Below are positions 10,606-28,737 of a stretch of 50,613 nt of DNA, piece after piece. A model generated the notes under the pieces. It ran no database searches, had not been told where the DNA came from, and was given only the letters and a program-made list of their open reading frames with translations. The first letter of the stretch is position 1. Every line of letters starts with the position of its first letter. The translations under genes were made by a program, and so were the position numbers. Origin of the DNA: an uncultured Eubacteriales bacterium (lineage in GTDB: Bacteria; Bacillota; Clostridia; Lachnospirales; Lachnospiraceae); assembly GCA_949294665.1 (NCBI GenBank), contig CASFID010000039.1, positions 1-50,613 of the forward strand, in the 5' to 3' direction.

Positions 10606-10691
10606 AATATACTCCTGTCCTTCTCTTCAAAATCTGTTACCAGTTTAGCATGAAAAAGACAGGAGTACAACTTTCCTTCCCAGATTCCCGC

Positions 10692-10894
10692 TTAGAATTG
10701 TAACAGTTCAGCCCATTTTCTGAGCGCATCCTGAGACCGTGTTCCGTTAAGAAGCCCTCCATTTACGATCTCTGCTCCTGGACAGCTTACGGCAAGGTCC
10801 GCCGCTGACTTTCCAAGTCCGCTGCCGCCAGATTTTCCGCCACCCTTTTTGTCGTACCTCCTGCTGAGAAATATGCGACTAATGTTCTGCTCAC
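10692..10894 (-). pseudogene. Flavodoxin pseudogene, internal deletion
   Basis: From a GTG at 10894 with GGAGG 8 bases upstream, the minus strand reads SRTLVAYFSAGGTTKRVAEN, the FMN phosphate-binding start of a clostridial flavodoxin. After about 25 codons the frame changes, and a second frame reads SGGSGLGKSAADLAVSCPGA then EIVNGGLLNGTRSQDALRKW to a TAA at 10692, which is the flavodoxin C-terminus. The middle (roughly 90-100 codons, including the FMN isoalloxazine loops) is missing. The join lies in TCTGGCGGCAGCGGA, which can be read in either frame: as ENLAAA of the N-terminal part or as SGGSG of the C-terminal part. Confidence 0.8.
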
Positions 10895-11092
10895 AAATAA
10901 TTCCTCCTTCTGCTGATGATCGTCATCGTCCTTATGATATTCTTCCATTTCAGTGTAGCACCGGATACTGCTTCCTGCAAATATTTAGTTTGAATCTGAC
11001 CGATTTTATGATACAGTATTGAAAGACGTATCCCAACACGTCACCGTGCAGCCGGAAAGGCGCAAGCAGAACAGAAAGGATTGGTAGAACGG

Positions 11093-11932
11093 ATGCAGAT
11101 CGAATACAGGATCGGCGACTGCAGGGAACTCCTGAAAGAGATCCCTGACGCATCAGTTCGTCTCGTTGTCACATCGCCGCCATATAATATAGGAAAACCT
11201 TACGGTAATTATAAAGATAAGATCCCGCTGGATAAATGGAAGGAACTGATCTCTGACGTCACCCGGGAAGTCTGCAGGATCCTGACTCCCGACGGCAGCT
11301 TTTTCCTCAATCTGTCTCCTGTCCCTCTGGGGGCGGACAAAGAGATCATACCTCTGCCATTCTATGGCTATGAGATTTTCAGAGAAAACGGATTACATCT
11401 CAGAAATATGATCACATGGACGTTTAACAATATGCAGAACTGTACCAACAGACTGTCCGGACGTTATGAAAATATCCTCTGGGGCGTAAAGGATATCAAA
11501 AACTACGTTTTTCATCTGGATGACGTCCGTATTCCGTATATCACGAAGAACGACAAGCGTCTCGAAGGCGGGACCGGCAGAAATCCGACGGATGTATGGT
11601 ACTTTGACCGGGTGAACAATATGACGAAAAAGAAGCTTGATCTTACCCATCCGACGATCTATCCGTTGCCGATGATCGTACGCATCCTGAAGATGAGCAG
11701 CGATCCCGGAGATACGATACTGGATCCCTTTGCCGGGAGCGGAACATCTCTCGTAGCCGCAAAGATCCTGGATCGGAACGCCATCGGCATCGAGATCGAC
11801 GCGCAGTATCAGAAAGAGGCGGAACGCCGCCTCTCATCTGAGGGCAATATCCCCGCTTCTGTCTTCGACGAATGCCGGAGCGAGCAGGAGAAAAAGGATG
11901 ACTTTCTGCGAGCCATATCAGAGCTCTCCTGA
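11093..11932 (+). CDS. Beta-class DNA methyltransferase (N4-cytosine or N6-adenine), solitary
   Basis: The 279-residue enzyme has the catalytic motif IV TSPPYNIG at residues 27-34 and the AdoMet motif I DPFAGSGTSLVAAK near the C-terminus. Motif IV before motif I defines the beta class; SPPY is most common in N4-cytosine enzymes but does not exclude N6-adenine. It transfers a methyl group to a specific DNA site. There is no nuclease gene beside it. Its layout (LDDVRIP, RNPTDVW, HPTIYP) parallels the methyltransferase of the restriction operon at 18.5 kb (LDEVKVP, KNPSDVW, HPAQYP), so the two are homologues. The ATG at 11093 was preferred over an upstream TTG at 11081 that is too close to AAAGGA. 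A weak promoter (TTGAAT, 16 bases, TACAGT) lies near 10990-11020. Confidence 0.9.
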   Translation: MQIEYRIGDCRELLKEIPDASVRLVVTSPPYNIGKPYGNYKDKIPLDKWKELISDVTREVCRILTPDGSFFLNLSPVPLGADKEIIPLPFYGYEIFRENGLHLRNMITWTFNNMQNCTNRLSGRYENILWGVKDIKNYVFHLDDVRIPYITKNDKRLEGGTGRNPTDVWYFDRVNNMTKKKLDLTHPTIYPLPMIVRILKMSSDPGDTILDPFAGSGTSLVAAKILDRNAIGIEIDAQYQKEAERRLSSEGNIPASVFDECRSEQEKKDDFLRAISELS

Positions 11933-12019
11933 TGGCCCCGGTCGGCAGCATACCTCAGAAGGGCAGCCGACGCGCAGCGTAAGGCGCCGAAAAAGCATAC
12001 AGAATGTGTAGAACTCTCC

Positions 12020-12037
12020 ATTGTCTTGTGCTATAAT
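12020..12037 (+). promoter_or_regulatory. Extended -10 promoter of pncB
   Basis: TGCTATAAT ends at 12037 (TATAAT at 12032-12037 with a TG one base before it). No good -35 is seen, as is common for extended -10 promoters. A GC-rich short palindrome (GCGCC...GGCGC, 12059-12074) lies between it and the start codon. Confidence 0.6.
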
Positions 12038-12100
12038 CGTAAAGAAAATCCAAAACAGCGCCCCTTAAGGCGCCCTGTAGAACGAAAAGAGGAAAATACT

Positions 12101-13549: not shown

Positions 13550-13595
13550 TACGGAAGATGACAACTTTTACACATATAAAGGAGTATAGATCACT

Positions 13596-14654: not shown

Positions 14655-14749
14655 AACGTGCAGAACAGACGGACTGGACATAAACTCTTTTCGGGGAAGC
14701 TGCTTTTTATGGAAAGCCACTTTATCAGAGAAAGGAACTTTATTGTAAT

Positions 14750-16129
14750 ATGAAACATATGTCACTGCATGAAATCGCCGCGGCCTGCGGCGGAACTTAC
14801 CACGGGGATCCCTCCCGTGCCGACCGGGAAGTATCCGACGTCGTGATAGACAGCCGTAAGGCGGGAAAGGGCAGCCTCTTTATCGCTATCAAAGGCGCAA
14901 GAGCAGACGGTCATACATTTATCCCACAGGTAATGGAAAAAGGCGCTCTCTGCTCTGTGTCAGAGCAGGATCTCGGCGATACGGACTATCCGTACATCCG
15001 TGTGGATTCGTGCGCGCAGGCGCTCAAAGACATCGCAGAGCACTACCGCCGCTCTCTGGACATAAAAGTAGTCGGTATCTCGGGAAGTGTAGGTAAGACC
15101 AGCACCAAAGAAATGATCGCCTCCGTCTTATCTCAAAGGTACTCTGTACTGAAGACCGAGGGGAATTTTAACAATGAGATCGGCCTTCCCCTCACTGTAT
15201 TCAATATACGTGAAGAACATGAGGTGGCCGTGCTGGAGATGGGGATCAGCGATTTCGGTGAGATGACGCGTCTTGCAAAGATTGCCAGACCGGATATCTG
15301 TGTCATCACCAATATCGGTGTGGCTCATATTGAAACGCTTGGCTCCAGAGACGGTATCCTGAAAGCGAAGACAGAAATGTTTGACTACATGGCCCCGAAA
15401 GGTGCGATCATCCTTAACGGCGATGACGACAAGCTGCGTGCCTTTACACCGGAAAATGGAATATCCCCGGTCTATTTCGGACTTGATCCGGCCTGCCCGT
15501 ACCACGCAGAGCACATAGAAAGCTGTGGGTTAAAAGGCACTGACGCACATTTTGTCACGCCGTCCGGATCTTTTAGCGCTCACATCTCCATCCCCGGCGA
15601 CCACATGGTATACAATGCGCTCGCAGCGACGGCCGTCGGATACACGCTTGGCATGACAGACGGCGAGATTGCCGCCGGGATCCGCGCAAATGTCCCGATC
15701 GCCGGGCGCAACAATCTGATCGAAGGACAGCATTATACCGTCATCGATGACTGTTACAATGCGAACCCTGCTTCTATGCGTTCCTCGCTTGACGTCCTGG
15801 CATATGCGGATACAAGGACAGTCGCTGTGCTTGGCGATATGTTCGAGCTTGGCGACGACAGCGGGAAAATGCACTACAGCGTGGGCGCCCATGCCGCCCG
15901 AAAAGGAATCGACGTCCTTGTATGTATCGGAGCTCTGAGCAGCGAGACTGCACGCGGCGCCAGGGAGACCGCCTCCGGGACCGGTTCACCGATACAGGTC
16001 TTCCACTATGATACCAAATCCGATTTCTTCCGGGAGTCGGAGCAGATACTGCGTGAGAAAGATACGATCCTTGTCAAGGCATCACACGGGATGGAATTTT
16101 CAGAAATCGTAGACCGTCTGACTGTATGA
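14750..16129 (+). CDS. murF: UDP-N-acetylmuramoyl-tripeptide--D-alanyl-D-alanine ligase
   Basis: The 459-residue Mur ligase has the ATP loop VGISGSVGKTSTKEMI near residues 108-123, FNNEIGLPLTVF and AVLEMGISDFGEM typical of MurF, and the late motif DDCYNANPASMRSSLD (family YNANPxS). It couples D-Ala-D-Ala from Ddl to the lipid II precursor in the cytosol. The chosen ATG is 13 bases from AAAGGA, a rather long spacing, but no better in-frame start exists. Its last codons are part of the terminator stem shared with the convergent aroE. Confidence 0.97.
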   Translation: MKHMSLHEIAAACGGTYHGDPSRADREVSDVVIDSRKAGKGSLFIAIKGARADGHTFIPQVMEKGALCSVSEQDLGDTDYPYIRVDSCAQALKDIAEHYRRSLDIKVVGISGSVGKTSTKEMIASVLSQRYSVLKTEGNFNNEIGLPLTVFNIREEHEVAVLEMGISDFGEMTRLAKIARPDICVITNIGVAHIETLGSRDGILKAKTEMFDYMAPKGAIILNGDDDKLRAFTPENGISPVYFGLDPACPYHAEHIESCGLKGTDAHFVTPSGSFSAHISIPGDHMVYNALAATAVGYTLGMTDGEIAAGIRANVPIAGRNNLIEGQHYTVIDDCYNANPASMRSSLDVLAYADTRTVAVLGDMFELGDDSGKMHYSVGAHAARKGIDVLVCIGALSSETARGARETASGTGSPIQVFHYDTKSDFFRESEQILREKDTILVKASHGMEFSEIVDRLTV

Positions 16130-16152
16130 ACTGTCAGACGGTCTGTTCGTTT
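16111..16152 (+). terminator. murF terminator overlapping the stop region
   Basis: AGACCGTCTGAC (16111-16122) and GTCAGACGGTCT (16133-16144) form a perfect 12-base stem with a 10-base loop, followed by TGTTCGTTTA. The left arm codes for the last residues of MurF. Confidence 0.85.
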
Positions 16153-17029
16153 ACTCGTTAAAAAACTTCTCCATCACTTCATAGGCAGGCATCTCTTTGC
16201 CTGTGAAAAGGCGGAACGCCTCCGCGCCCTGCCAGAGCAACATGCCGATCCCGCCCACTGCGGCGCGGCAGCCTGCTTCTTTCGCTTTCTTGATAAGCAG
16301 CGTCTCCCTCGGATTGTATACCACGTCTGCCACTGCCAGGTCTTTGTGAAGATACTCGGCCGGCACAGGGAGTACGTCATCCATCGGACTCATCCCCGCG
16401 CGCGTTGCGTTGACAAGGATGTCGCTCCGGGAGATCACTTCTTTGAGCAGGTCCTTATTTCCAAGATCCTCGATGTAGACTTTCCCGATATCCGGAACTG
16501 CTTTTTTGATCTTCTCTACTGTTTTCTCTCCATTCGCATAAAACTCATCTTTCTGGTTAAAAATAGCGATCTCCGCCACTTTGTCCAGAGCGGCCTGTAC
16601 GGCGATAGCCGTAGCGGCTCCTCCTGTGCCGAGGAGAACGAGTTTCCTGCCCTTGATCTCCACGCCGTGCTCCTTTAAATTCCGTACAAATCCGACTCCG
16701 TCCGTAATATGTCCGGTCATCGTTCCGTCTTCTTCAATGACGACCGTATTGCACGCGCCCACGAGTTCTGCCGCGGGAGACAGTCTGTCTACAAGCTGTG
16801 CGACCGCAGTCTTACACGGCATCGTCACATTGAATCCGCCCGCGTGAAGTGTGCGTAGGGCGTCGAGCGCGTCTTTTGTCTTCTCCAGCGGTACGTCGAA
16901 TGCAAGATATGCGGCGTCAATGCCCAGCTTCTGAAAACTGTAATTCTGCATCGCCGGGGAACCGGAGTGGCCCACCGGAGAACCGATCAGCGCGTAGAGT
17001 TTCGTGTGTCCTGTGATTCTTTCTTCCAT
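16151..17029 (-). CDS. aroE: Shikimate dehydrogenase
   Basis: The 292-residue enzyme shows GSPVGHSGSPAMQNYSF near the N-terminus (shikimate-binding Ser pair), FNVTMPCK (catalytic Lys), GACNTVVIEEDGTMTGHITD (substrate Asp), and the NADP loop VLLGTGGAATAI. It reduces 3-dehydroshikimate to shikimate in aromatic amino acid synthesis. The usual GxNTD is GHITD here, with the catalytic Asp kept. Members with such changes are sometimes YdiB/quinate-type, so strict shikimate specificity is likely but not certain. GGAGG precedes the ATG. It stands alone and converges on murF. Confidence 0.9.
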   Translation of the reverse strand: MEERITGHTKLYALIGSPVGHSGSPAMQNYSFQKLGIDAAYLAFDVPLEKTKDALDALRTLHAGGFNVTMPCKTAVAQLVDRLSPAAELVGACNTVVIEEDGTMTGHITDGVGFVRNLKEHGVEIKGRKLVLLGTGGAATAIAVQAALDKVAEIAIFNQKDEFYANGEKTVEKIKKAVPDIGKVYIEDLGNKDLLKEVISRSDILVNATRAGMSPMDDVLPVPAEYLHKDLAVADVVYNPRETLLIKKAKEAGCRAAVGGIGMLLWQGAEAFRLFTGKEMPAYEVMEKFFNE

Positions 17030-17119
17030 GTTCTATGCCTCCAAATCTATTTTCTAATCCGTAGGATCCAGACTAAAATGCAGGTTCAGTATATCACATA
17101 TCCTTCTCCCCTTCAAACG

Positions 17120-17683
17120 TTAAGACCAGCGTACGTTATGAAGTCTGAGCTCCGTCCATATTCTCTGCAGTTCCGAAAATCTGCCCATCTGCCTGATGTC
17201 CGGGCGATAGACTCCCCGCTCTCTGTCCACACAGTCTTCGTCATTGTACAGTCGGTCTTTTATCTGTTCGTCAGTCTCAAAGTAAAGCCCCATTCTGTCG
17301 ACGTAGTTGAGAAGACTGATGAAGAAGACCGGCCTGTCCAGCCTGGACTGCGCGTACCTGACCAGCCGGATCGTATCGTCCAGAGGCATTTCCAGATCTT
17401 CCTCCCGGAAACCGTCTCCCGCAAGATATCGGAACCGGACATATGCGAGGATTCCCTTATCTCCGTTTAGAAAGATGTATCGCGGATACGTCTCGCGGTC
17501 AGGCTCCCATTCGCTTATATGAAACCTGAACTTCTTTCTGAGATATGTCCTCAGTTCTGTGATCAGCCTGTCCTGATCGAATTTTTCTCCGCCCTCATGC
17601 CGCTGCATCAGGAGTGTGTCAAACGACTCCTGCAGATCGTCGTCCGCCCTGCAGCACCTGGCGGCAAATAATGCCGGATCCAT
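17120..17683 (-). CDS. Degenerate PD-(D/E)XK nuclease-fold protein, partner of the restriction enzyme
   Basis: This 187-residue protein is the last gene of the restriction operon, 13 bases after the nuclease gene. Its second half aligns with that nuclease: LDRPVFFISLLNY and GLYFETDEQIKD here against LDAPVFYVHWLDY and GIFYETSSQVRD there. At the active-site positions it reads YPRYIF and AYVRFRY where the nuclease has LPDCKI and AYFEVKY. The catalytic Asp, Glu and Lys are thus Arg68, Arg83 and Arg85, with the same 15-residue spacing. It should be catalytically dead and may form a heterodimer or read DNA sequence. The start at 17683 follows AGGAGGA; an upstream frame to 17740 overlaps the nuclease gene without a site. 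Confidence 0.75.
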   Translation of the reverse strand: MDPALFAARCCRADDDLQESFDTLLMQRHEGGEKFDQDRLITELRTYLRKKFRFHISEWEPDRETYPRYIFLNGDKGILAYVRFRYLAGDGFREEDLEMPLDDTIRLVRYAQSRLDRPVFFISLLNYVDRMGLYFETDEQIKDRLYNDEDCVDRERGVYRPDIRQMGRFSELQRIWTELRLHNVRWS

Positions 17684-17696
17684 ATGCCATCCTCCT

Positions 17697-18476
17697 CTAA
17701 CTGTCCAACAGTCCGCGCAGCTCGTCGACAAATTCTTCAAAGCTTCTCATACTCAGCAGCGGGGAATACATCTTTTTAAGATAGACTGCCTTTTTTGACT
17801 TCATGTCGTCGCCTTCGCGTTTCGCTCTTTCAAATACTTCATGCCGGTGCGAGATATAGTCTCTCACCTGACTGCTTGTCTCGTAAAATATCCCTTTCAG
17901 GCACGGATAATCCAGCCAGTGGACATAAAATACAGGAGCGTCGAGCCCCTCTTCGATCAGCGCGAGCTGCTTCTCGATCTTTTTATGATCCAGCGTCGCG
18001 CTTCCCTCATAGCAGTATCTTCCCGTCAGATTCTTCGCGGATACAAAAGGAGCTCCGTGGTATTTCACCTCAAAATACGCGGCTGTCGTCCCGTCTCTTT
18101 TTAATATCTTACAGTCGGGAAGGGATTTGTTCTCTGTATCCGCCCGTTCTGTCTTCGCGCCGAGTTTATCCTGTAAGAATCCCATCAGCGCCTCTTCGTG
18201 CTGTTGTCCCATAATGACGTCATACTTCGGAATACTTTTATTCCTCGCAGGAATAAAGAAAGAACCGCACTTTCTGCACATTTTCTTCAGGCCCGGTATT
18301 TTTTCTTTCAGTTCCTTTACCGGGGCGATGTGGTCAGAAGAATTGGCGGTATACATATAGTCATAACACTCCTGATTAAATCCGCTCCATGTAAATTGAT
18401 TTTCAAAAACAGGCACATTTCTGAAAAATTCATCAAATCGGGGCTTGCATGACGCAAGCAGTTCTTCATACAGCAT
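17697..18476 (-). CDS. Type II-like restriction endonuclease, PD-(D/E)XK fold
   Basis: The 259-residue protein contains PD at residues 120-121 (SLPDCKILKRDG) and EVK at 136-138 (AAYFEVKYHG), the metal-binding and catalytic core of PD-(D/E)XK nucleases. A CRKC pair at 67-70 with further Cys could hold a metal. Next to a DNA methyltransferase gene 12 bases upstream, this makes it the cleaving half of a restriction system. Target site is unknown. It is translated third in a four-gene operon, after the TGT-like protein and methyltransferase, so modification would be made first. Confidence 0.8.
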   Translation of the reverse strand: MLYEELLASCKPRFDEFFRNVPVFENQFTWSGFNQECYDYMYTANSSDHIAPVKELKEKIPGLKKMCRKCGSFFIPARNKSIPKYDVIMGQQHEEALMGFLQDKLGAKTERADTENKSLPDCKILKRDGTTAAYFEVKYHGAPFVSAKNLTGRYCYEGSATLDHKKIEKQLALIEEGLDAPVFYVHWLDYPCLKGIFYETSSQVRDYISHRHEVFERAKREGDDMKSKKAVYLKKMYSPLLSMRSFEEFVDELRGLLDS

Positions 18477-18488
18477 AGTGATCCTCTC

Positions 18489-19262
18489 CTATCTTACTTT
18501 TGCCAGACGTTCCTCGGCTATATCGCAGTATTCTCTCACCGTTTCATAGCCGAGATAATGTCTTCCCAGTCTTTTCGCGACAACGGCGGACGTCCCGCTC
18601 CCCATGAACGGATCCAGGACTACCTCGTCTTTGTTGGTGCCCGCCAGTATTATCCTCTCGACTAATTCTTCCGGGTACTGTGCGGGATGCGCGGTTCGCT
18701 CTTCAAAGTTTCCCGATACCATGGATATACGCCACACGTCCGACGGATTCTTAAGCTGGCTCTTATATCGGTCCGGACGATAGTTCAGAGCCGGGACTTT
18801 CACCTCGTCCAGATTGAACGTGTATTTATTTTTATTCTTCACGAACCAGAATACAAACTCATATCTGGGGGAAAACCTTTTGGATGTAGATCCTCCCCAG
18901 TCGAAATTCCATATGATCAGATTCTTAAGATACATGTCTTCAAAATAATCCTGTATCCAGAAGGGCGGCAGGACTACCCCGTCCACACAGCGGTTCTTGA
19001 TGTTCACCCAGATCGAGCCCGTGTCTTTGAGCACTCTTCTGCACTCTGAAAATACAGATTCGAGCATCTTCCGGTAGTCTTCCTCCTCCATGTCGTCGCG
19101 GTATTTAACTCCTTTGCTCTCCAGCACTTTTCCTTTGTTCGTCTTGTTCCCATACTGGATGTCTATATTATAAGGCGGCGACGTCACGATAAGATCTACT
19201 GTTCCCGTGTCTATCTCCGTCATGGTCTCGCTGGATCTGTTATATATCTCGTCGAGCTGCAT
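18489..19262 (-). CDS. Beta-class DNA methyltransferase of the restriction operon
   Basis: The 257-residue enzyme has TSPPYNIDIQYG at residues 27-38 (motif IV) and DPFMGSGTSAVVAKRLGR near residue 216 (motif I), the beta-class order. It methylates an exocyclic amino group (N4-C or N6-A) at the site its partner nuclease cuts. It is preceded by the TGT-like gene (37-base gap) and followed by the nuclease (12-base gap). It resembles the solitary methyltransferase at 11.1 kb in length and motif layout. The ATG at 19262 is preceded by GAAGAGGAGAAA. Confidence 0.92.
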   Translation of the reverse strand: MQLDEIYNRSSETMTEIDTGTVDLIVTSPPYNIDIQYGNKTNKGKVLESKGVKYRDDMEEEDYRKMLESVFSECRRVLKDTGSIWVNIKNRCVDGVVLPPFWIQDYFEDMYLKNLIIWNFDWGGSTSKRFSPRYEFVFWFVKNKNKYTFNLDEVKVPALNYRPDRYKSQLKNPSDVWRISMVSGNFEERTAHPAQYPEELVERIILAGTNKDEVVLDPFMGSGTSAVVAKRLGRHYLGYETVREYCDIAEERLAKVR

Positions 19263-19299
19263 TTTCTCCTCTTCGTGTCCTTTCCATATGTATTCTCTT

Positions 19300-20676
19300 C
19301 TAAAGCTGTCTGTATATTTCTTTCAGCCGGGTGTTGAGCGTATTCGGATAAGCTTTGCAGAAATCATAGAAAGAAGCATAGTCCGCTATGACTTCACACA
19401 GCTTCCTGTGCTGATTTACCGCATGAAGGCCCATCAGCTGCCTGCTGAAATAGTTAGCCTCATTGTCCGAGGATTTCATGGAATAAAGCTTTTTGATATT
19501 CCTGATGCTTCCCGCCTCCTTGCATGCCGGGCACCCGCACAGGGACATATTATCATCCACCTCGTTCAGTCTGACATATGTGCATGGCTCCTCCCTCATT
19601 GTCCCATCCATGTCGATCCCACCGACAAAATATCTGCTGAATCCTACTTTGCGATGAGGGCACGGATCGAATACAAGCCTGGTGGACTCAAGACTTCCGT
19701 CTCCGACACGCCGTACCGGAGAAGCAGCGTCAAAAGATGTGGCTCCACAGAAGTAATTCATTGCAATATTCGGGTATCCTCCGCATCCAAGAGCGTGTAT
19801 CGGCCTGCTGCCCGCCCTTTTTCGCACGATCATGCTTGCCCTCGCAGGCGTGACCGTCTCGATCGTCCCACTCTTTCCCGTCTTCCTGAAATCAATATCG
19901 CCGTACCATGAGTCATCGACCTGTCTGTAGCTTGCAATGCCTCCCAGGGCAAATCCCCAGAACTCACAGGAGTACGCCTTTTCCAACGCCAGGATACGTT
20001 CCGTACACGCCGCATAATCCTCCGGCGTCGCCCCGTGGACCGGCGCCAGGACATGTGGATAATACGATCCTTTTGAGGAAAGATACCGCACGGTCTCTTC
20101 GAGCAGGATGTCGTTTACTTTTTCCGCGTCTATACCCGCAAGAAGGTCTCTCAACCGTTTGTTGCCTTTCTCATTGTCTTTCTCCGTGTACTTTCCACCC
20201 AGATCAAAGCCCACCACAATGTCGAATTTCAGCCTGTCCGCGAAATCATAGTAGTCTCTCATATGACCGATCAGGGCCTCTTTAAACCGGGAGATATCAT
20301 AGTCTACAGACTCCGCGATATATTTCACGATATTAAACGCTCCTGAATCAAGCAGGAACACCTTGCAGTTAAAATCATACTCCCTGCTCTTGTAGCCGCT
20401 GTATATCTCGCCTTTTTGATCGATCAGCTTTCTTCTGATATCATTGTACAGGTCGCCGACTTTGGAGTATCCCGACAGATCGTCAAACATCCGGCTCTGA
20501 AACAGATGCGGATAGCGGTTGTTGATATAATAATAGTTGATAAGAGCAGGCGTATTTCCTGTAAATTCCGAATAGACGATCTCCCTGTCCTTGTCGCCGT
20601 TCCCTCCGCCATAATTATACACCTGGAAAAACGACGGGATCGGCAGGCGTTTCCCGTGAACGTCATAATACTTCAT
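19300..20676 (-). CDS. tRNA-guanine-transglycosylase-like protein (DpdA-like) leading a restriction operon
   Basis: The 458-residue protein keeps the whole TGT active-site plan: LLDSGAFN (109-115, Asp110 as in DSGGFQ), VVGFDLGG (154-161), GFALGGIAS (241-249, as in the GGLSVGE substrate loop), GCGGYPNIAMNYFCGATSFDAASP with Asp316 at the nucleophile place, and a zinc site C380-x-C382-x2-C385 with His418. Tgt enzymes swap guanine for a 7-deazaguanine in tRNA; DpdA relatives do this in DNA. The chain is longer than standard Tgt (about 375) and is diverged. It has its own promoter and is followed by a DNA methyltransferase and nuclease. I infer a DNA target, with base exchange as part of self-marking, but no preQ0 synthesis genes are in the window. 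Confidence 0.75.
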   Translation of the reverse strand: MKYYDVHGKRLPIPSFFQVYNYGGGNGDKDREIVYSEFTGNTPALINYYYINNRYPHLFQSRMFDDLSGYSKVGDLYNDIRRKLIDQKGEIYSGYKSREYDFNCKVFLLDSGAFNIVKYIAESVDYDISRFKEALIGHMRDYYDFADRLKFDIVVGFDLGGKYTEKDNEKGNKRLRDLLAGIDAEKVNDILLEETVRYLSSKGSYYPHVLAPVHGATPEDYAACTERILALEKAYSCEFWGFALGGIASYRQVDDSWYGDIDFRKTGKSGTIETVTPARASMIVRKRAGSRPIHALGCGGYPNIAMNYFCGATSFDAASPVRRVGDGSLESTRLVFDPCPHRKVGFSRYFVGGIDMDGTMREEPCTYVRLNEVDDNMSLCGCPACKEAGSIRNIKKLYSMKSSDNEANYFSRQLMGLHAVNQHRKLCEVIADYASFYDFCKAYPNTLNTRLKEIYRQL

Positions 20677-20734
20677 CCTGTTGTCCTTTCGTGTATTGCC
20701 AAACTTTTAAACCGTCCTCTGAGCTGCTCCTTAT

Positions 20735-20762
20735 ATTCTATCAAAAAACAGGAAAATCGCAA
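20735..20762 (-). promoter_or_regulatory. Promoter of the TGT-like/restriction operon
   Basis: On the minus strand TTGCGA (20757-20762), 16 bases, TAGAAT (20735-20740). It lies about 60-85 bases before the start codon of the first gene, with no other promoter visible in the tight gene junctions downstream. Confidence 0.6.
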
Positions 20763-20791
20763 GGTTTTGCCCGATATGGGAAGATCAAATT

Positions 20792-23266
20792 TTATTCATA
20801 ATCTCTTAACCGTTCCACAATAGAGCGATTTCTTGCAAGTTTTTTATAGGATAGAAGCGGTGCTGTCGTACATATCAGTATGACTAGAATAATAGCACTG
20901 ACCAAAGGAATCACCGGCACTTTGAACGGAATCCCCATATAATTCATGGACTGAAAGCAAATATAAGTGATAGCAGATCCAATCGTCAGTGTGATAAGTA
21001 CGGAGAAAGTCGCATATAAAACACCCTCTCGAATCAAAAGTCGGTCTATTTGTTTCCTGGACATCCCAACGCTTTCCATAACAGAAAATGTTAATTTTCG
21101 ATTCTGTATACTACTCGTGATTGTATTCGTATAATTTAGTACCCCGACCAGCAGAAGCAATAAGGCGATTATTGTGCCCGTCTCCATCATGTTTCCCTGT
21201 GATTCTTGAATTGTTTTCATATCCTCATATTGAGATTCAACGTGTAGATCATTACTATATGAACTATTGTCTATAAGAGATGTAATCTTTTTTTCTAACA
21301 CTTCATCATATTTCTGATTATAATAAATATACACATCTAATATAGTCGGCTTGGAAGTCAGACTTTTTAAATAGTTTTGACTTACAAGCAACGAAGCGCC
21401 TATATCTCTCCCGCTATACTGCGTTTCAAAGGACACAGCTTCAATCATAATTTCATATTGTTTACCTTGAAAATTAAAAGGGACTTTCTGATTCAAATAT
21501 TCTTCTGGTATTTCAGAGCCTTCATACTGTACTATGCAAACTTCCCCATTAAGAAAATCTTGTTTATCGACAGGAGTATTCAACGATTGATTCACATAAT
21601 CAAATTCTTCTTCATCAATGCCTATTAACATCCCATAATAATTTGACGGATCAGCTTTATAATCTGCTATAATTTCTTCAGCAGATACATATGGCGTCCT
21701 TTCTATATAGTTTGTTATCCACATATCAGAAAAACCGTTTGATACATATGGAAAACTAATTGGTACTCCCTCTACAATATGAAAGTCTTTAATACCGTCC
21801 ATCTTTCCTATCTCTTCAACAAAAGAGTCCTCTATGGCCGGCTGAAGAGAATTGATATCCTCTGTGGTTTGTGTCTGGTTCTGAACAACAAAATCGGCAT
21901 TCCAGTAGTTAGGCAGTACCGTTCTTTCTCCCTGGCTGCTTATAATCGTCGTAAGACAATAAAATACAGATAAACTTGTTGCCAGCGACAGTAATACGAT
22001 AACTGTTTTCTTTTTATCTTTTTTAAACTGTTCAAATGCCATTCTCCAGAAGAAAGCGCCTTTTTTCTTTTTATATCCTTTTCCATCAGATATACATTCT
22101 CTATATTTTGCAGCTTCTACCGGTGTAACCTTTGTTGCAATTTGAATCGGCTTTCTCATTCCCAAAAGAATAGAAAAGACTGTCACAACAATACTTACAG
22201 TTAAAATCACTGGATTGAATTGCAATGCCATATTGCCAGTCGAAATACCCAATACTCCAAGAATATAAGGTACTAATTTTATGGACACAAGAATACCTGA
22301 CAGGTTTCCGATAAACACCCCTGATATTCCAACAATCATCATTTGCTTTGTTATGAAACGAACAAGCTGTTTCTTTGTCATACCCAGAGATTGAAGCAAT
22401 CCATAATATCGTATCTTCCCTGAAACGGACAGATACAAAATATTGTAAATCAGAAGATATGCGCTTAAACATATGACAAGAGCCAGACCGCATATGCCAA
22501 GCAACAGCTTAAAAGAATTTTCGATATAACCTGTCGGAGCAAAAATTTGCCTGTCTGAGAAATCCAAAGATTTTTCTATGGATTGTATTGTAGTTGGTAA
22601 AACGTAGTTACGGTTCAGTTTTATGCAAAGGATTCCATCATTTTTTAAATCATATCCTGTTTCATCATAAAAGGCTTTTGACACAAATCCGGCAGATGTA
22701 TCTCCGTAACCGTCCCATATACCGCTGATAACAAATTCGTCCGTATGGACGCCTGTATTATTCTCATAAGTTAAAACAAGCCTATCTCCAACAGACAGAT
22801 TTTCATTTCCACAAGCTTTTAGAATATCTTTTGTAACCATCAATTCATTTTTATTTTGCGGATAATGTCCATCTAATTTTGTTCTTGCAGGTGACATCAG
22901 ATTATCCCAGAATACTTCATCACACCATAACAAACCGATTTCAACAGTATGATCAAACTCGGAACTTTTAATAAACCCAGCATAGGATTCCATACCTACA
23001 CTTTGTATATTTTCGTTTTGCCGTAAAGTATTAAGCTGTTCTGATGTAAAACCGTTCATAGTCGTAATATCATATTCAGCTCCATTTAATCGCGTATTCT
23101 GCAATCTGCTTGAATCCAGATAAGCCAAGCCGATCGTAAATACACAGAAAACCATAAACGCAGATAAAATTATCGTGAAGAACAAAATTCCATATTGCTT
23201 TTTATTTGATTTAACGCTGTTTTTTGCCAGCCTGTTGATAATCGCCTTATTATTATTCGCCAACAT
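20792..23266 (-). CDS. FtsX-like ABC transporter permease (antimicrobial-peptide type)
   Basis: The protein of about 824 residues has an N-terminal membrane helix, an extracellular domain, a three-helix FtsX block around residues 250-370, a fourth helix and large second extracellular domain, and a C-terminal FtsX block (NYTNTITSSIQNRKLTFSVM then ESVGMSRKQIDRLL). This duplicated layout is found in permeases that move or sense lantibiotics, bacitracin or other peptides in Firmicutes. The start at 23266 (GGGAG 8 bases upstream) overlaps the ATPase stop by 14 bases, so the two are coupled. The two-component system just upstream probably controls it. Substrate unknown. Confidence 0.9.
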   Translation of the reverse strand: MLANNNKAIINRLAKNSVKSNKKQYGILFFTIILSAFMVFCVFTIGLAYLDSSRLQNTRLNGAEYDITTMNGFTSEQLNTLRQNENIQSVGMESYAGFIKSSEFDHTVEIGLLWCDEVFWDNLMSPARTKLDGHYPQNKNELMVTKDILKACGNENLSVGDRLVLTYENNTGVHTDEFVISGIWDGYGDTSAGFVSKAFYDETGYDLKNDGILCIKLNRNYVLPTTIQSIEKSLDFSDRQIFAPTGYIENSFKLLLGICGLALVICLSAYLLIYNILYLSVSGKIRYYGLLQSLGMTKKQLVRFITKQMMIVGISGVFIGNLSGILVSIKLVPYILGVLGISTGNMALQFNPVILTVSIVVTVFSILLGMRKPIQIATKVTPVEAAKYRECISDGKGYKKKKGAFFWRMAFEQFKKDKKKTVIVLLSLATSLSVFYCLTTIISSQGERTVLPNYWNADFVVQNQTQTTEDINSLQPAIEDSFVEEIGKMDGIKDFHIVEGVPISFPYVSNGFSDMWITNYIERTPYVSAEEIIADYKADPSNYYGMLIGIDEEEFDYVNQSLNTPVDKQDFLNGEVCIVQYEGSEIPEEYLNQKVPFNFQGKQYEIMIEAVSFETQYSGRDIGASLLVSQNYLKSLTSKPTILDVYIYYNQKYDEVLEKKITSLIDNSSYSNDLHVESQYEDMKTIQESQGNMMETGTIIALLLLLVGVLNYTNTITSSIQNRKLTFSVMESVGMSRKQIDRLLIREGVLYATFSVLITLTIGSAITYICFQSMNYMGIPFKVPVIPLVSAIILVILICTTAPLLSYKKLARNRSIVERLRDYE

Positions 23267-23948
23267 GGAACCCACTCCCTTTTAATATCTTCCCGTCCTC
23301 AATCTGAACGATTCTGTCCGCCATTTGTGCAATATCGGTATCATGCGTAATAACGATCAATGTTTGCTGATATTGTCTGCTTAATATCTTCAGCAATCCG
23401 ATCACATCATGGCTGGTAGAAGTATCGAGATTTCCTGTTGGTTCGTCGGCAAGGACAATCGCAGGTTTCGCTGCTAAAGCCCGGATAATCGCTGCACGCT
23501 GTTGTTCTCCACCGGACAGCATTGCAGGGAGCATTTCCTGTTTATCTGATATATTTAATATTTCCAACAGTTCCTGAATAAAATCTTTATCAATCTGTGC
23601 GCCGTCTAACTCAAGAGGGAAAATAATATTGTCATATACATTCAAATCTGGTATTAAATTATACTGTTGAAAAATAAATCCTACTTTTCTTCTTCTGAAA
23701 AGAGCAAGCTGTTCGGCATTTAGTGTTTCAATATTTACTCCATCAACAATGACAGTTCCACTGCTGGGCGTGTCTAATCCTCCAATCATATGCAGAAGTG
23801 TACTTTTACCACTTCCGGATTTTCCAATGACAGAAACAAATTCTCGTTCAGCAACCTCAAAATCTACGCCATCCAGCGCTTTTACGGTCTGTTTCCCTGT
23901 TTTATAGTATTTTTTTAAATCCTGTGTTTTGACAATCATATTTTTCAT
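23253..23948 (-). CDS. ABC transporter ATP-binding protein (LolD/MacB-type)
   Basis: The 231-residue ATPase has Walker [10 protein letters not shown] (42-50), Q-loop [12 protein letters not shown], signature [15 protein letters not shown], Walker [13 protein letters not shown] and switch His VITHD. It powers the FtsX-like permease encoded next. AAGGAGG lies 8 bases before the ATG at 23948. Upstream, after the two-component system's terminator, the minus strand has TGTGA direct repeats (near 23965-24006) and a -10 TACTAT, plausible targets for the response regulator. Confidence 0.95.
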
Positions 23949-24007
23949 ATTCAAGTCCTCCTTATGATCACATAGTAAAATAAAAAAATCACAAACCAGT
24001 CACAAAA

Positions 24008-24034
24008 AGAAAAAATCACAAAACTGTGATTTTT
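24008..24034 (-). terminator. Terminator of the RR-HK operon
   Basis: AAAATCACA (24012-24020) pairs with TGTGATTTT (24025-24033), loop AAAC. On the minus strand it is followed by TTCTTTTTG. It separates the two-component genes from the ABC genes. Confidence 0.75.
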
Positions 24035-24035
24035 C

Positions 24036-24962
24036 CTAATCCCGATTTGGAAGATATATCATAAAGGTACTCCCTTGTCCAACTTGTGACTTCACTTCGA
24101 TATATCCATTTTGAAGTGTAATAATTTTCCTTGTCAAATACAGCCCAATACCAATCCCATCATTATCGTATACCTCTGGTTCACGATAGAAGCGAGTAAA
24201 AATAGTCGCTTGTCGTTCTGGCAAAATACCTTTTCCAGTATCCTCAATACTGATTTTCGTAAAAAGTTCCTGTCTGCACACAACGATATGGAGCTTTCCT
24301 CCGTCATTTGTATACTTTACGGCATTATCTAAAATATTGAAAATTGCTTCTGCTGTCCATTTCTTATCGTGGCTTAATTCTAATCGTTCATCATATTGCA
24401 CATCAATCTTAATGTTTTTCTTCTCTGCCTTTATTACCACATTACTGATTGCCATAGCAAGAGTGTCAGTAAGAGGGGCAATTTGCTTTTGAATTTTGAT
24501 TGTCCCTGTTTCAAGTCGTGACATTTTCACCATACTTTGCAGCAGAAAATCTAATTTATCAACCTGACCGTTCATCTTTTTTAAATATTCCTGTTTCCTG
24601 TCAAAATCCGTTTCATCTGCCATCATTTCCAAATAAAGCTTTATATTTGCAATGGGAGTTTTCGTCTGGTGAGAAATATCAGACACCAATTCTTTCAGCT
24701 TATCCTTTTCTTCTGAAATTTCTAAGTTTTTATGAGTATACAGATGTGAAAGACGAACCAGTCTGTCATAGATTTTTCCCCATAAATCATCTTTTTCACA
24801 GGAACTTGTTTTTAATTCTTCATTTTTCAACATATAGTTTATAGCAGTATCTAATTTCTCTGTATATTCATAAACATCATGTTTCAAATGAATGTATTTC
24901 CAAAGCGCAAAAGCAGCGATAAACACTAACGCAAAAAATATTATAAAAATCATTATTTCCAT
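24036..24962 (-). CDS. Sensor histidine kinase of the peptide-transport module
   Basis: The 308-residue kinase has one N-terminal membrane helix (about 3-23), almost no extracellular loop, a HisKA H-box SDISHQTKTPIANI with His98, and HATPase motifs NILDNAVKYT (N-box) and DTGKGILPE, GIGIGLYL (G-boxes). The lack of a sensor domain resembles intramembrane-sensing kinases that detect the activity of a partner ABC transporter. It overlaps the response regulator stop by 10 bases, so the regulator is translated first. Confidence 0.93.
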   Translation of the reverse strand: MEIMIFIIFFALVFIAAFALWKYIHLKHDVYEYTEKLDTAINYMLKNEELKTSSCEKDDLWGKIYDRLVRLSHLYTHKNLEISEEKDKLKELVSDISHQTKTPIANIKLYLEMMADETDFDRKQEYLKKMNGQVDKLDFLLQSMVKMSRLETGTIKIQKQIAPLTDTLAMAISNVVIKAEKKNIKIDVQYDERLELSHDKKWTAEAIFNILDNAVKYTNDGGKLHIVVCRQELFTKISIEDTGKGILPERQATIFTRFYREPEVYDNDGIGIGLYLTRKIITLQNGYIEVKSQVGQGSTFMIYLPNRD

Positions 24963-25615
24963 ATATATCCCATTCCATATACATTTGAAATATAAGAGTG
25001 TCCCTCGGTCTCAATCTTTTTACGCAGTCTGTTGATATTTACCGCCAGCGTATGCTTGTCCGTTATTTGTACTCCCTCGGCCCATAAGGAATCTGATAAA
25101 ATCGAATAGGTAAGCAGTTTCCCCTTATTCTCAATCAATTTTTTCAAAATACGATATTCTGTGGGGGAAAGCAAACATTCATTTGCTCCCTGCTGAACTG
25201 TACCAAGTTCAAAATCCACTTTCAGAAAGCCATCGTCATAAATATTTGATCCTTGTGACTTTCTGGATAATATTACATACACTTTTTTCAGGAAAATCTT
25301 CATAGAAAAGGGTTTGGTCACATAATCGTCCGCACCTAATTCATATCCATTTAAAACATCATCTTCTAAATCTCTTGCAGAAACAAATAAAACCGGGACT
25401 TGTTTTTTCGATTTCAGCCATTTACAAAACTGAAAGCCGTCCCCATCTGGTAAATTGACATCAAGTATCGCCAAATGAAAAGATTCGTTTTCTGTGAATT
25501 TTTCAGCTTCATTACAAGAATATGCTGAAAAGACACGATACCCCTCTTTTTCCAACGCATAAGTTATGATCTGATTTAATTCCATATCATCTTCCAAAAC
25601 CAGAATAGTAGCCAC
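24953..25615 (-). CDS. OmpR-family response regulator of the peptide-transport module
   Basis: The 220-residue regulator has a receiver domain with acidic pocket LEDD and phospho-acceptor Asp52 (LAILDVNLPDGDG), followed by Thr/Ser and Lys (TKPF), and a winged helix (LLSPTEYRILKKLIENKGK, TLAVNINRLRKKIE, YGMGYIWK). It should activate the ABC operon downstream. A promoter-like stretch (minus strand TATAAT near 25655-25662) lies upstream with a partly palindromic ACAGCACAGTA segment. Confidence 0.94.
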   Translation of the reverse strand: MATILVLEDDMELNQIITYALEKEGYRVFSAYSCNEAEKFTENESFHLAILDVNLPDGDGFQFCKWLKSKKQVPVLFVSARDLEDDVLNGYELGADDYVTKPFSMKIFLKKVYVILSRKSQGSNIYDDGFLKVDFELGTVQQGANECLLSPTEYRILKKLIENKGKLLTYSILSDSLWAEGVQITDKHTLAVNINRLRKKIETEGHSYISNVYGMGYIWK

Positions 25616-25807
25616 AAATAAATTCCTCCGTAAGAAATATTTCAGACGTTTTAATTATATACTGTGCTGTACTATATTTTCCAACATTTTACGTGAGCAG
25701 AACAACCGTCTCAACGGTATTACCAGATTCCCACATTTTTACTGATATACTATTTTATTTTAAACTCTTTTCTTAATTTCAGTTCATCTACAAGTTTATT
25801 ATTTGCA

Positions 25808-26005
25808 TTAATGATACTTTTCTATGGCCCTTTCGGAGCCATAAGAATATATCGTGTTCATTATCTCTTCAAATCGCTTAAGATTCATATCTAAAGTTAC
25901 TTGTTTCTGGTTGTCATTGTCAATATCTTCTAACTCCATCATTTTATCCATTAACTGTAACACTTCATACGGCATTGTTGCCATTTTCTCTAGTGCAATC
26001 ATCAC
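25808..26005 (-). CDS. Small hypothetical protein (65 aa)
   Basis: A 65-residue, Met/Glu/Asp-rich, helix-forming product (MMELEDIDNDNQKQVTLDMN). It has only a weak ribosome site and could be a remnant. It belongs to an AT-rich stretch with phage-like genes. No family recognised. The flanks 25616-25807 and 26006-26148 contain no other gene that I can support. Confidence 0.35.
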   Translation of the reverse strand: MMIALEKMATMPYEVLQLMDKMMELEDIDNDNQKQVTLDMNLKRFEEIMNTIYSYGSERAIEKYH

Positions 26006-26148
26006 TCATAATCGCTTTTCACTTACCGAATTAACCATTACGCCTAATATACATGCATAATCCATATTATTATGTTATCCTCTCATAATTATTTTATTGA
26101 ACTTTCAACTACTATTACTTTGTCATTTTGCTTTTAACAATTTTTATT

Positions 26149-26985
26149 TCACAATTTAGGCAAATTATTGAACCTTACCGTTTCCAATGTCTGTAACTGT
26201 TGTACCGCTAACTTTCGAAGCAATTCCATTCTCTCTTTCTGATTCTTACCCTGATTTATTAAAACAGCATTATAGCTTTCTAAATTTGCAAGTACCAGTA
26301 ACTGATTCAATGTTGCTGCGTCCCGCATATTCCCTTTAACAGTCGGATTTTCATCTTTCCATTGCTTAGCCGTCTTTCCAAACAAAACAACATTCAGCAT
26401 ATCTGCTTCATTTGCATAGGTATACGCTACCTGTGCGGGTGTTAATTCCGGCGGTATCAAATTATCCTTAATCGCGTCAGTATGTATCTTGTAATTCAAC
26501 TTAGAAATCTCTCTGTTCAAATTCCAATTCAGAGATAGCCGACTATTCTCATCAGTCTTTAATCTCCTGTAATCTTTCATGATATATAACTGGAATTCAG
26601 GAGAAATCCATGTTGCGAAAGACATAGCAATATCGCTATGGGCATATGTTCCGCCATAACGTCCTGCTTTTGAGACAATACCGATAGCATTCATCTGCGT
26701 AATCCACTTTGTTGGCGTCATAACAAAACGATTTAATCCCGCCTCATTTTTAACCGCCTCGAATTGCACACGGTTAAACTCAGGATTATGTAGTTCTTCC
26801 CAAACGCCTAAAAACTCAATCGTATTTCTATTTCGCATCCAGTTTTGAATCACAAATCGCGGATCGTCCTCATTTCGATATTTTGCAATATCCGTTAATG
26901 AAATAAATTCATTTTCAAAATTTGTAGTATAGATTCCTATGTCAATACCTTTTGCATGGATAGTCTCCTTAACAATTTTCGCCAT
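26149..26985 (-). CDS. KilA-N domain protein
   Basis: The 278-residue protein has a KilA-N DNA-binding domain from about residue 20 to 140 (EFISLTDIAKYRNEDDPRFV, NWMRNRNTIEFLGVWEELHN, GRYGGTYAHSDIAMSFATWI, SPEFQLYIMKDYRRLK), followed by a C-terminal region of unknown role. Such proteins are common in phages and mobile islands as antirepressors or regulators. The start at 26985 follows GAGGAGG. It overlaps the preceding 96-residue gene by 17 bases, so the two are co-translated. Base composition is AT-rich compared with rlmD. Confidence 0.88.
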   Translation of the reverse strand: MAKIVKETIHAKGIDIGIYTTNFENEFISLTDIAKYRNEDDPRFVIQNWMRNRNTIEFLGVWEELHNPEFNRVQFEAVKNEAGLNRFVMTPTKWITQMNAIGIVSKAGRYGGTYAHSDIAMSFATWISPEFQLYIMKDYRRLKTDENSRLSLNWNLNREISKLNYKIHTDAIKDNLIPPELTPAQVAYTYANEADMLNVVLFGKTAKQWKDENPTVKGNMRDAATLNQLLVLANLESYNAVLINQGKNQKERMELLRKLAVQQLQTLETVRFNNLPKL

Positions 26986-27259
26986 AAGTATCCTCCTCTT
27001 CCCACATTTCCCGATATGCTTCAATATAATCCCTAATACAACCGGGATATATATCCAAATACTTTCTACATACCCTTTTGTACAATCCCAGGATTTTTTC
27101 ATCACACGCAAAATCCAGTAAATAATCTAACAAATGTGATAATTCATCTTCCGACACAGTTCTGCTGCACACATCTTCAACCAATGGCAAATAAACTTCA
27201 TAGGCTTTCTGATGTAATTGGACTATCTGCTCTGCAATCTGGTAAATATTTTTATCCAT
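26969..27259 (-). CDS. Hypothetical 96-aa helical protein upstream of KilA-N
   Basis: A small acidic, all-helical product (MDKNIYQIAEQIVQLHQKAY, then YEVYLPLVEDV and LDYLLDFACDEKILGLYKRV) with no motif I recognise by function. It starts directly after the RlmD C-terminal-like gene and overlaps the KilA-N gene, so it belongs to the same accessory unit. Confidence 0.65.
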   Translation of the reverse strand: MDKNIYQIAEQIVQLHQKAYEVYLPLVEDVCSRTVSEDELSHLLDYLLDFACDEKILGLYKRVCRKYLDIYPGCIRDYIEAYREMWEEEDTYGENC

Positions 27260-27658
27260 TTAAATTACCTCAAAATACTTAAGCGCCTCCATTATCGCTT
27301 CTACCCTTTCTTTCGGCGGACGTTTCCTCGACTGTTTCAATTCCTCTGTCGCATTAGGCGCGTCATACATTGTCAGTCCCAGAGATCTTTTCACCTCCGC
27401 AATATAAGTGGTATGTACCTTAAATCCATACTTCTGCTCCACATATTCCTGTATCATCTTATATGTGATTTTCAGTTTCGGCTGATATTTCTTCGCCCGT
27501 TCTGCAATCGCATCCAACGATATCTTATCATCGCCTTCTCCAAATTCTACCTTTACATTAATAACACTGTCCGGGGATTTGTATGACAAAAGTACTACCG
27601 TCTCCACATGAGTACCGTTGTCCAAACCAATATTTACATTAGTCTCTAAAGAATCCAT
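27260..27658 (-). CDS. Stray C-terminal domain of an RlmD/RumA-type methyltransferase
   Basis: The 132-residue product begins with about 15 unrelated residues and then reads NGTHVETVVLLSYKSPDSVI, which parallels the end of the RlmD catalytic domain encoded upstream (MTVHVEVVCLLSKLKSDKHI). The rest (TYKMIQEYVEQKYGFKVHTT, YIAEVKRSLGLTMYDAPNA) is the C-terminal extension I remember from clostridial RlmD proteins; this family memory is not checked here. There is no methyltransferase core. It is best read as the displaced 3' end of an rlmD copy left by integration of an element into the HVExVVLL codons. Confidence 0.65.
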   Translation of the reverse strand: MDSLETNVNIGLDNGTHVETVVLLSYKSPDSVINVKVEFGEGDDKISLDAIAERAKKYQPKLKITYKMIQEYVEQKYGFKVHTTYIAEVKRSLGLTMYDAPNATEELKQSRKRPPKERVEAIMEALKYFEVI

Positions 27659-27700
27659 TAACTTTAATTTACCCCTTTTCGATTAGAAAACATTTTTCTA

Positions 27701-28653
27701 TCAACTATCTCCTTTTTTCTTTACTATGTTTTGAATATTTTTAATGCTTTCCAAATATTCCTCTTCAACCGGCGACAAGTTCTGTGCCTGATATTTTCTA
27801 TACTCTTCTGTTGCCTTCTCGATTGCCTGCGCATGACTGATTGCACCGGCATCCTGCAGCACCTTTTCCCCTGTAGTCTTCAAAACATTATCAAGATACT
27901 CTACATAATCTGACATATACATAGGATGATGGCGCATAGCCTGAATTTCTGCAAAATCAAAATATCCCGATACAATATTATTCAATATTTTTAATTCTTC
28001 ATCATTAAGGTAATTCTTTGCAATGCCTATATCCTTTAAAGCAGGAAAATCACCAGAAAAACTCTTCAATCCCATAAAAGGCTGGCTCGCATCCGCACGC
28101 TCGTATATAACCTCCGCTGCTGTATGTCCATGTGCTGCATAATGCAATTTGTTCTGCACCATTTTAAAAAAAGCAATAGATTCACTGCTCTTAGGATCAT
28201 AGTCAACACTCGTTGCACAAAGGTCAAGAACCTGTCGATACATAACCTTTTCAGACGCTCATCATCCATTGTAAAGCCTTTTATCATGTACTCTTTTAAT
28301 CGTTCGGTAGCCCACCGACGGAAATTTATGGCGATTTTTGATTTTACCCTATACCCAAGAGAAATAATCATATCAAGATTATAATGTGTTGTATTATATT
28401 TTTTCCCGTCAGCAGCAGTTGTTCGGAATTTCCGAACAACTGAATTTTCTTCCAGTTCGCCCTCTTCAAAAATGTGTTTGATATGCTCACTGATATTGGA
28501 TTTACTCGTTTGATAGAGTTCGCATAATTGCGCCTGTGTAAGCCAAACGGTCTCATCTTCAAATTTAACGTCAATTTTTGTGTGTCCATCTTCCGTTTGA
28601 TATATAATAATTTCGCTCACAACGTTTTTAGAAGTATCTCTTTTATTCTCCAC
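27701..28653 (-). pseudogene. rhuM-family gene, frameshifted by an internal deletion
   Basis: The first part (28653 to about 28255) encodes the RhuM N-terminus: IIYQTEDGHTKIDVKFEDET, VWLTQAQLCELYQTSKSNIS, NLDMIISLGYRVKS and FRRWATERLKEYMIKGFTMD. After DDERLKRL the frame changes. The second part (28243 to 27701) encodes the remaining C-terminal domain (MYRQVLDLCATSVDY then FMGLKSFSGDFPALKDIGIA). About two dozen residues usual between them appear missing at the junction, which causes the shift. RhuM proteins are accessory, often island-borne, with poorly known function. It sits between rlmD and the stray RlmD C-terminal domain. Confidence 0.8.
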
Positions 28654-28737
28654 CTCTCACCCCTCCTAGTAATCTGCTCAATCTTTTATTGTCAACTGTA
28701 TTTTCCAATGCCTCCAATAAAAAATGTCCTACAGTCC

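Follow-up and report, generated by a model that had tools for sequence, protein, structure and literature searches.

DNA-modifying relatives of tRNA-guanine transglycosylase (TGT) have been described in large dpd clusters and in phages, where little work has addressed how base exchange relates to restriction. DpdA, and probably DpdA2 as well, are TGT paralogues that place deazaguanines in DNA, as described in parts of PMC6884629. In bacterial Dpd clusters, which are centred on DpdA and associated with ADG in DNA, the paralogue stands in a defence context resembling restriction-modification (RM) (sections of PMC12839542 and PMC6884629). In the BRC systems (HerA, PglZ, GNAT, TGT), a TGT has been recruited into a defence operon (sections of PMC12839542). 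Here we analyze a 50,613-nucleotide stretch of DNA (the window) from an uncultured Eubacteriales bacterium of the Lachnospiraceae (GenBank GCA_949294665.1, contig CASFID010000039.1), in which a TGT-like gene is found with two DNA methyltransferases (M1 and M2), a nuclease (N1) and a degenerate nuclease paralogue (N2).

This cassette differs from the Dpd clusters in its makeup: it has four or five genes, of which two encode methyltransferases and one an intact PD-(D/E)XK nuclease. Whereas BRC is a seven-component translocase/PglZ system, as portrayed in the same sections of PMC12839542, the cassette loci have no conserved genes of that kind. Type II RM systems with two methyltransferases likewise combine two beta-class enzymes with a PD-(D/E)XK nuclease, but in the loci recovered here a TGT-fold enzyme is a constant member and a degenerate paralogue often accompanies N1. 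A 2025 review of RM mentions DpdA and, in the portions available, describes no such cassette (PMC12707154). An earlier, sequence-only reading of the window had called the layout unfamiliar, and openly licensed PMC full text (CC0, CC BY, CC BY-SA), judged by title, likewise yielded no description of TGT, methyltransferase and nuclease genes arranged in this way.

A TGT-fold protein encoded with methyltransferase and nuclease genes

The genes concerned are as follows.

19300..20676, minus strand: TGT-fold transglycosylase-like protein, 458 aa, first gene of the TGT-M1-N1-N2 run
18489..19262, minus strand: M1, beta-class DNA N6A/N4C methyltransferase, 257 aa (TSPPYN, DPFMGSGT), PF01555 E 4e-61
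17697..18476, minus strand: N1, PD-(D/E)XK nuclease, 259 aa, PD at 120-121 and E136-x-K138
17120..17683, minus strand: N2, degenerate N1 paralogue (PD and ExK lost), 187 aa from ATG
11081..11932, plus strand: M2, second beta-class methyltransferase, 283 aa, PF01555 E 9e-48

The positions given by the sequence-only reading for the four minus-strand open reading frames (ORFs) are correct. The frames are separated by 37, 12 and 13 bases, the third value assuming that N2 starts at ATG. That reading had credited the 458-residue protein with a TGT fold and a full set of active-site motifs. The structural model does contain the TGT barrel with its zinc subdomain, and the motif residues are D110 (DSGAF), D158 (FDLGG), H214-G215, GFALGG (241-246) and H294. 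D316 (SFDAASP), which lines up with the corresponding motif of E. coli Tgt, is the putative nucleophile, and C380, C382, C385 and H418 are putative zinc ligands; the catalytic roles (nucleophile Asp, general-acid Asp) are those we take these residues to have. D110, D158, D316, the three cysteines and H418 are unchanged in all 16 aligned members, and the base-recognition loop is likewise invariant. Judged from sequence and model, the protein is a genuine member of the TGT superfamily with an apparently intact active site.

Profile matches are weak. The best TGT hits of the protein are at E 0.016 (NCBIfam) and 0.009 (PADLOC), and its TIGR00449 score is 14.1 bits against a cut-off of 47.6. The PADLOC TGT model returned no match in 392 genomes of the same order, the window's own included, because this protein by itself scores just E 0.009. 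PDB sequence searches with the TGT-like protein or N1 gave no relevant match. On TIGR00430, the equivalog model for queuosine Tgt, 2/16 members reach E ≤ 0.1 (best, 0.047), and an ordinary Tgt is encoded elsewhere in the host genome, separate from the TGT-like gene. These two results rule out ordinary queuosine Tgt as the identity of the protein, so the clustering with Tgt that might have undone the sequence-only reading was not seen. One copy, in locus L019 (9249-10624), is split over two frames and hence broken, through either sequencing error or decay.

The enzyme might nonetheless act on tRNA as Tgt does, tying tRNA state to the restriction set in an alarm, addiction or growth-arrest module. 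We consider this improbable: an ordinary Tgt and QueA are already encoded by the host, and a tRNA substrate would be less parsimonious for an enzyme linked to DNA methyltransferases and a nuclease.

The other assignments held up. M1, the only one of the four ORFs above a Pfam cut-off, is a beta-class enzyme with CcrM, RsrI and an N4C methyltransferase among its relatives in the PDB; M2 is 32% identical to it. N1 has both the core fold and the PD...(D/E)xK motif that define its superfamily, plus an additional N-terminal part of ∼80 residues bearing CxxC (67-70), and its motifs are intact (alignment of 14 rows, without L012, L014 and L018). N2 is homologous to N1, but in an alignment of 10 sequences its PD and ExK positions are not conserved. 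In PADLOC 2.0, N1 has no match and N2 a weak one, HEC-02B (E 0.0079). The cassette is a defence candidate that PADLOC 2.0 matches just weakly (TGT) or not at all (N1). In L008, near 13092 (G228:C88:11923-12696), the N1 gene of G228 carries one in-frame TAG, which may reflect sequencing error or decay.

Conservation of the cassette

To collect relatives, we ran a two-peptide pattern scan over 84,980 species and found 16 TGT-like loci at 50–72% identity. The scan covered one genome per species with patterns taken from an alignment of three TGTs, and hence distant copies can escape it. Together with the window, these make up 17 loci; L007 and L008, the relatives from the same order, are among the 16. 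Within the 392 same-order genomes, the TGT-like gene occurs in three, the window's included. A search of 388 genomes of the phylum with the TGT-like alignment (A2) matched the window's own genome alone.

In 16/17 loci, TGT, M1, M2 and N1 are close together (M2 of the window being ∼5 kb away). The 17th, L014, sits on a contig that ends 161 bases past the TGT gene. M1 is present in 16/17, and the pairing of methyltransferase and nuclease genes that characterizes type II RM is seen in the same number, so relatives of the TGT-like gene do sit with restriction genes, as the sequence-only reading supposed. Six gene orders occur among the complete loci, counting the split form of the window; the others are:

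M1-M2-N1-N2-TGT: L007, L016
TGT-M1-M2-N1-N2: L008, L019
TGT facing an N2-N1-M2-M1 run: L009, L010, L013, L015, L022
N1-TGT facing M2-M1: L011, L012, L017, L018
N1-TGT-M1-M2: L020, L021

Methyltransferases and nuclease accompany TGT in every complete locus, and we therefore reject a chance neighbourhood. The sequence-only reading had described the four-gene operon, without M2. Its linkage of TGT to methyltransferase and nuclease stands, but M2 lies outside that operon: in the window it is found beyond four core genes (NAPRTase, Ddl, MurF and AroE) that separate it from the rest, a split seen nowhere else among the 16 complete loci. M2 of the window matches M2 of L005 with a phmmer score of 497.8. 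N2 is detectable in 10/16 complete loci. Clustering of flanking ORFs revealed no further neighbour conserved across loci, the widest family being an ABC ATPase in four.

Amino-acid distances of the cassette parts correlate (Mantel r 0.745–0.914). Across 5000 permutations, the observed value was equalled or exceeded 0 to 25 times. The test used 12 or 13 loci (9 or 10 for N2), with L012, L014, L018 and L021 left out as near duplicates or incomplete, and L019, whose TGT is split between two frames, was for that reason dropped from A2 and the TGT distances. As related loci remain in the set, the correlated divergence speaks of shared history rather than many independent events.

Two methyltransferases usually serve the two strands of an asymmetric site, and M1, M2 and N1 could on their own form a complete type II system for such a site. 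The TGT-like gene would then be an accessory, perhaps regulating the system or helping against phages whose DNA contains deazaguanine. We think this quite improbable. TGT is present in every locus, although the loci were chosen through TGT. In a small converse test, N1 was present in exactly the 3/392 same-order genomes that have the TGT-like gene. Moreover, plasmids, phages and viral contigs yielded no N1, the last being covered by a two-peptide pattern scan only. No TGT-like relative was found in these collections either (viral contigs again by pattern scan), and a phage or plasmid gene was rejected as the class of origin. Collectively, the presence of a cassette with a TGT-like enzyme in scattered bacteria, several from animal guts, suggests an undescribed defence system.

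Relationship to DpdA, DpdA2 and Tgt

The sequence-only reading had described the protein as DpdA-like. The TGT fold is supported; strict kinship with DpdA is not shown by sequence. None of the 16 members scores at E ≤ 1 on the PADLOC DpdA model, which scores even phage 9g DpdA at just E 0.02, and hhalign of the TGT-like profile against DpdA profiles gives weak matches (E 0.0017 to 0.027). Scores are weak for DpdA2, ParB-linked DpdA, 9g-type DpdA and Tgt alike; in hmmsearch, with the noise level set by 360 shuffled decoys, the profile barely detects Tgt itself. Finer placement by sequence failed, as most DpdA, DpdA2 and Tgt sequences fall near noise in hhalign (local and global) and hmmsearch.

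The top profile score among 18 known TGT-like proteins belongs to DpdA2 of Vibrio phage nt-1, and it exceeds the best of the decoys. This protein is of similar length (464 aa versus 458 aa), and its DSG, FD, HGxT and GFALGG-like stretches are in register (hhalign E 5e-4, probability 31). Against an alignment of six DpdA2 sequences, however, the match drops to E 0.002 and probability 13, and the nt-1 protein, unlike ours, is encoded by a phage gene amid GTP cyclohydrolase, PTPS-like and QueC-like genes. Bacterial Tgt and archaeal TgtA share ∼17% identity with the window protein in structural alignment.

Immediately upstream of phage terminase genes, plasmid records L063 (Monoglobus) and L064 (Limosilactobacillus) contain a short gene run. 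It encodes a ParB-N protein, a transporter for a queuosine precursor (QueT in L064) and an unannotated protein with 30–40% identity to a phage 'queuine tRNA-ribosyltransferase'. This run perhaps represents phage DNA deazaguanine modification supplied by salvage.

Possible modes of action

The simplest explanation for a nuclease and a TGT that both look active, combined with two methyltransferases, is an RM system with an added base-exchange step. Our reading, which we put forward tentatively and with somewhat less than balanced confidence, is that the four or five genes form a self-contained, RM-like antiphage system in which TGT-like base exchange marks self DNA. M1 and M2 would each methylate one strand of a single asymmetric site. 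The TGT-like enzyme would swap a guanine in DNA, at or near the methylated site, for a 7-deazaguanine, possibly preQ1 or preQ0 from the host queuosine pathway. N1 would cut DNA without the combined mark, with N2 as a putative DNA-reading or dimer partner. The exchange would constitute an extra layer of self-marking, one missing from phages that evade methylation-based restriction. In favour of this reading are the TGT fold, the invariant catalytic and zinc residues, the co-occurrence and correlated divergence of the parts with no other neighbour conserved, the defence genes nearby, the confinement of N1 to same-order genomes with the TGT-like gene, QueA in most hosts, and the precedent of DpdA.

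Several points weigh against this reading. One is that DNA as the substrate of the TGT-like enzyme is something we infer, and the sequence of the protein is not demonstrably closer to DpdA than to Tgt. Another is that flanking-ORF clustering found no analogue of DpdB or DpdC among conserved neighbours. A third concerns base supply: neither full-length QueC nor YhhQ was found in 8/17 host genomes, including that of the window (95.9% complete). Full-length QueC is present in six hosts and YhhQ in three others. We counted QueC only at E ≤ 1.3e-54; weaker matches (E 6e-7 to 9e-4), mostly short, were excluded as other PP-loop ATPases, and an ambiguous one in G400, the host of L015, which spans 2-177 of 210, was left uncounted. 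The absence of a preQ0 source is weak evidence, because many hosts are metagenome-assembled genomes (MAGs) and QueT was not searched. Given this absence, the base used may be preQ1 or a different one instead of preQ0. QueA, which we take to act in the queuosine pathway, is encoded in 16/17 hosts, and preQ1 is therefore expected there. If a deazaguanine is used, preQ1 would be the candidate expected in the largest number of these hosts.

The last point against self-marking is gene order. TGT directly follows N1 on the same strand in 6/16 complete loci, overlapping it or within ∼10 bases (e.g. junctions 7158/7155 in L017 and 5873/5873 in L020), and in four of the six both methyltransferases lie together on the opposite strand. 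This layout fits a nuclease role at least as well as marking. N2 is undetected in exactly these six loci. The enzyme might act on foreign DNA that lacks M1/M2 methylation, where exchange, or excision with no base supplied, would create a mark or lesion cut by N1, while methylation shields self; excision would also need no preQ0 source. The remaining orders fit this less well, as TGT stands alone, facing the N2-N1-M2-M1 run, in five loci, leads the methyltransferases in L008 and L019, and leads M1 in the window. Known DNA-acting relatives (DpdA), as covered in parts of PMC6884629, mark DNA. We regard action on foreign DNA as unlikely overall. As to whether exchange marks self or foreign DNA, gene order gives the foreign option some weight.

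A broader claim, that restriction here requires nucleobase exchange as well as methylation, either with self bearing both marks or with unmethylated foreign sites converted for cutting, would be a categorically new RM architecture, and we judge it as apt to be right as wrong. Having four or five genes and one evident nuclease, the cassette is small enough to clone whole. It would offer a direct way to ask how restriction and base exchange in DNA are coupled, whether preQ1 is used in bacterial DNA, and what DpdA and DpdA2 do for the phages that carry them.

Insertion sites and neighbouring genes

In the window, the cassette occupies two spots:

17030..28737: inserted stretch between AroE and gene 28738, with TGT-M1-N1-N2 and a block of ABC/FtsX, two-component and KilA-N genes
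10606..12025: second insertion spot, with M2 between an AAA protein and NAPRTase

In L043 and L044, AroE directly adjoins the homologue of gene 28738. L042, whose MurF is the most similar among the relatives, has ∼182 bases at the M2 spot, and no M2 was found there. From these layouts, the window appears to have gained two separate inserts flanking the core block. The ABC/FtsX, two-component and KilA-N block (20792-27111), which shares its insert with the TGT operon, is low in GC (∼35%). In L045, from the same genus, 6.7 kb (10154-16856) separate MurF from AroE at this position, which therefore looks like a variable insertion site.

The cassette loci are in a defence-island setting. Among ten hand-picked neighbours from seven loci, the only proteins on which the Dpd models were run, PADLOC matched seven, in 5/7 loci:

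L021: GajA, GajB
L022: HamB
L011: type IV restriction enzyme
L015: PDC-S19, PDC-S57
L010: PDC-M30A
L014, L020: no match

Upstream of the cassette in L010 (7642-9617), the PDC-M30A-like protein is accompanied by one that looks radical-SAM-like by eye, possibly a further defence pair. Finally, L020 and L021 have very similar cassettes in MAGs labelled Alphaproteobacteria and Lachnospiraceae, respectively, reflecting either recent transfer or mis-binning.
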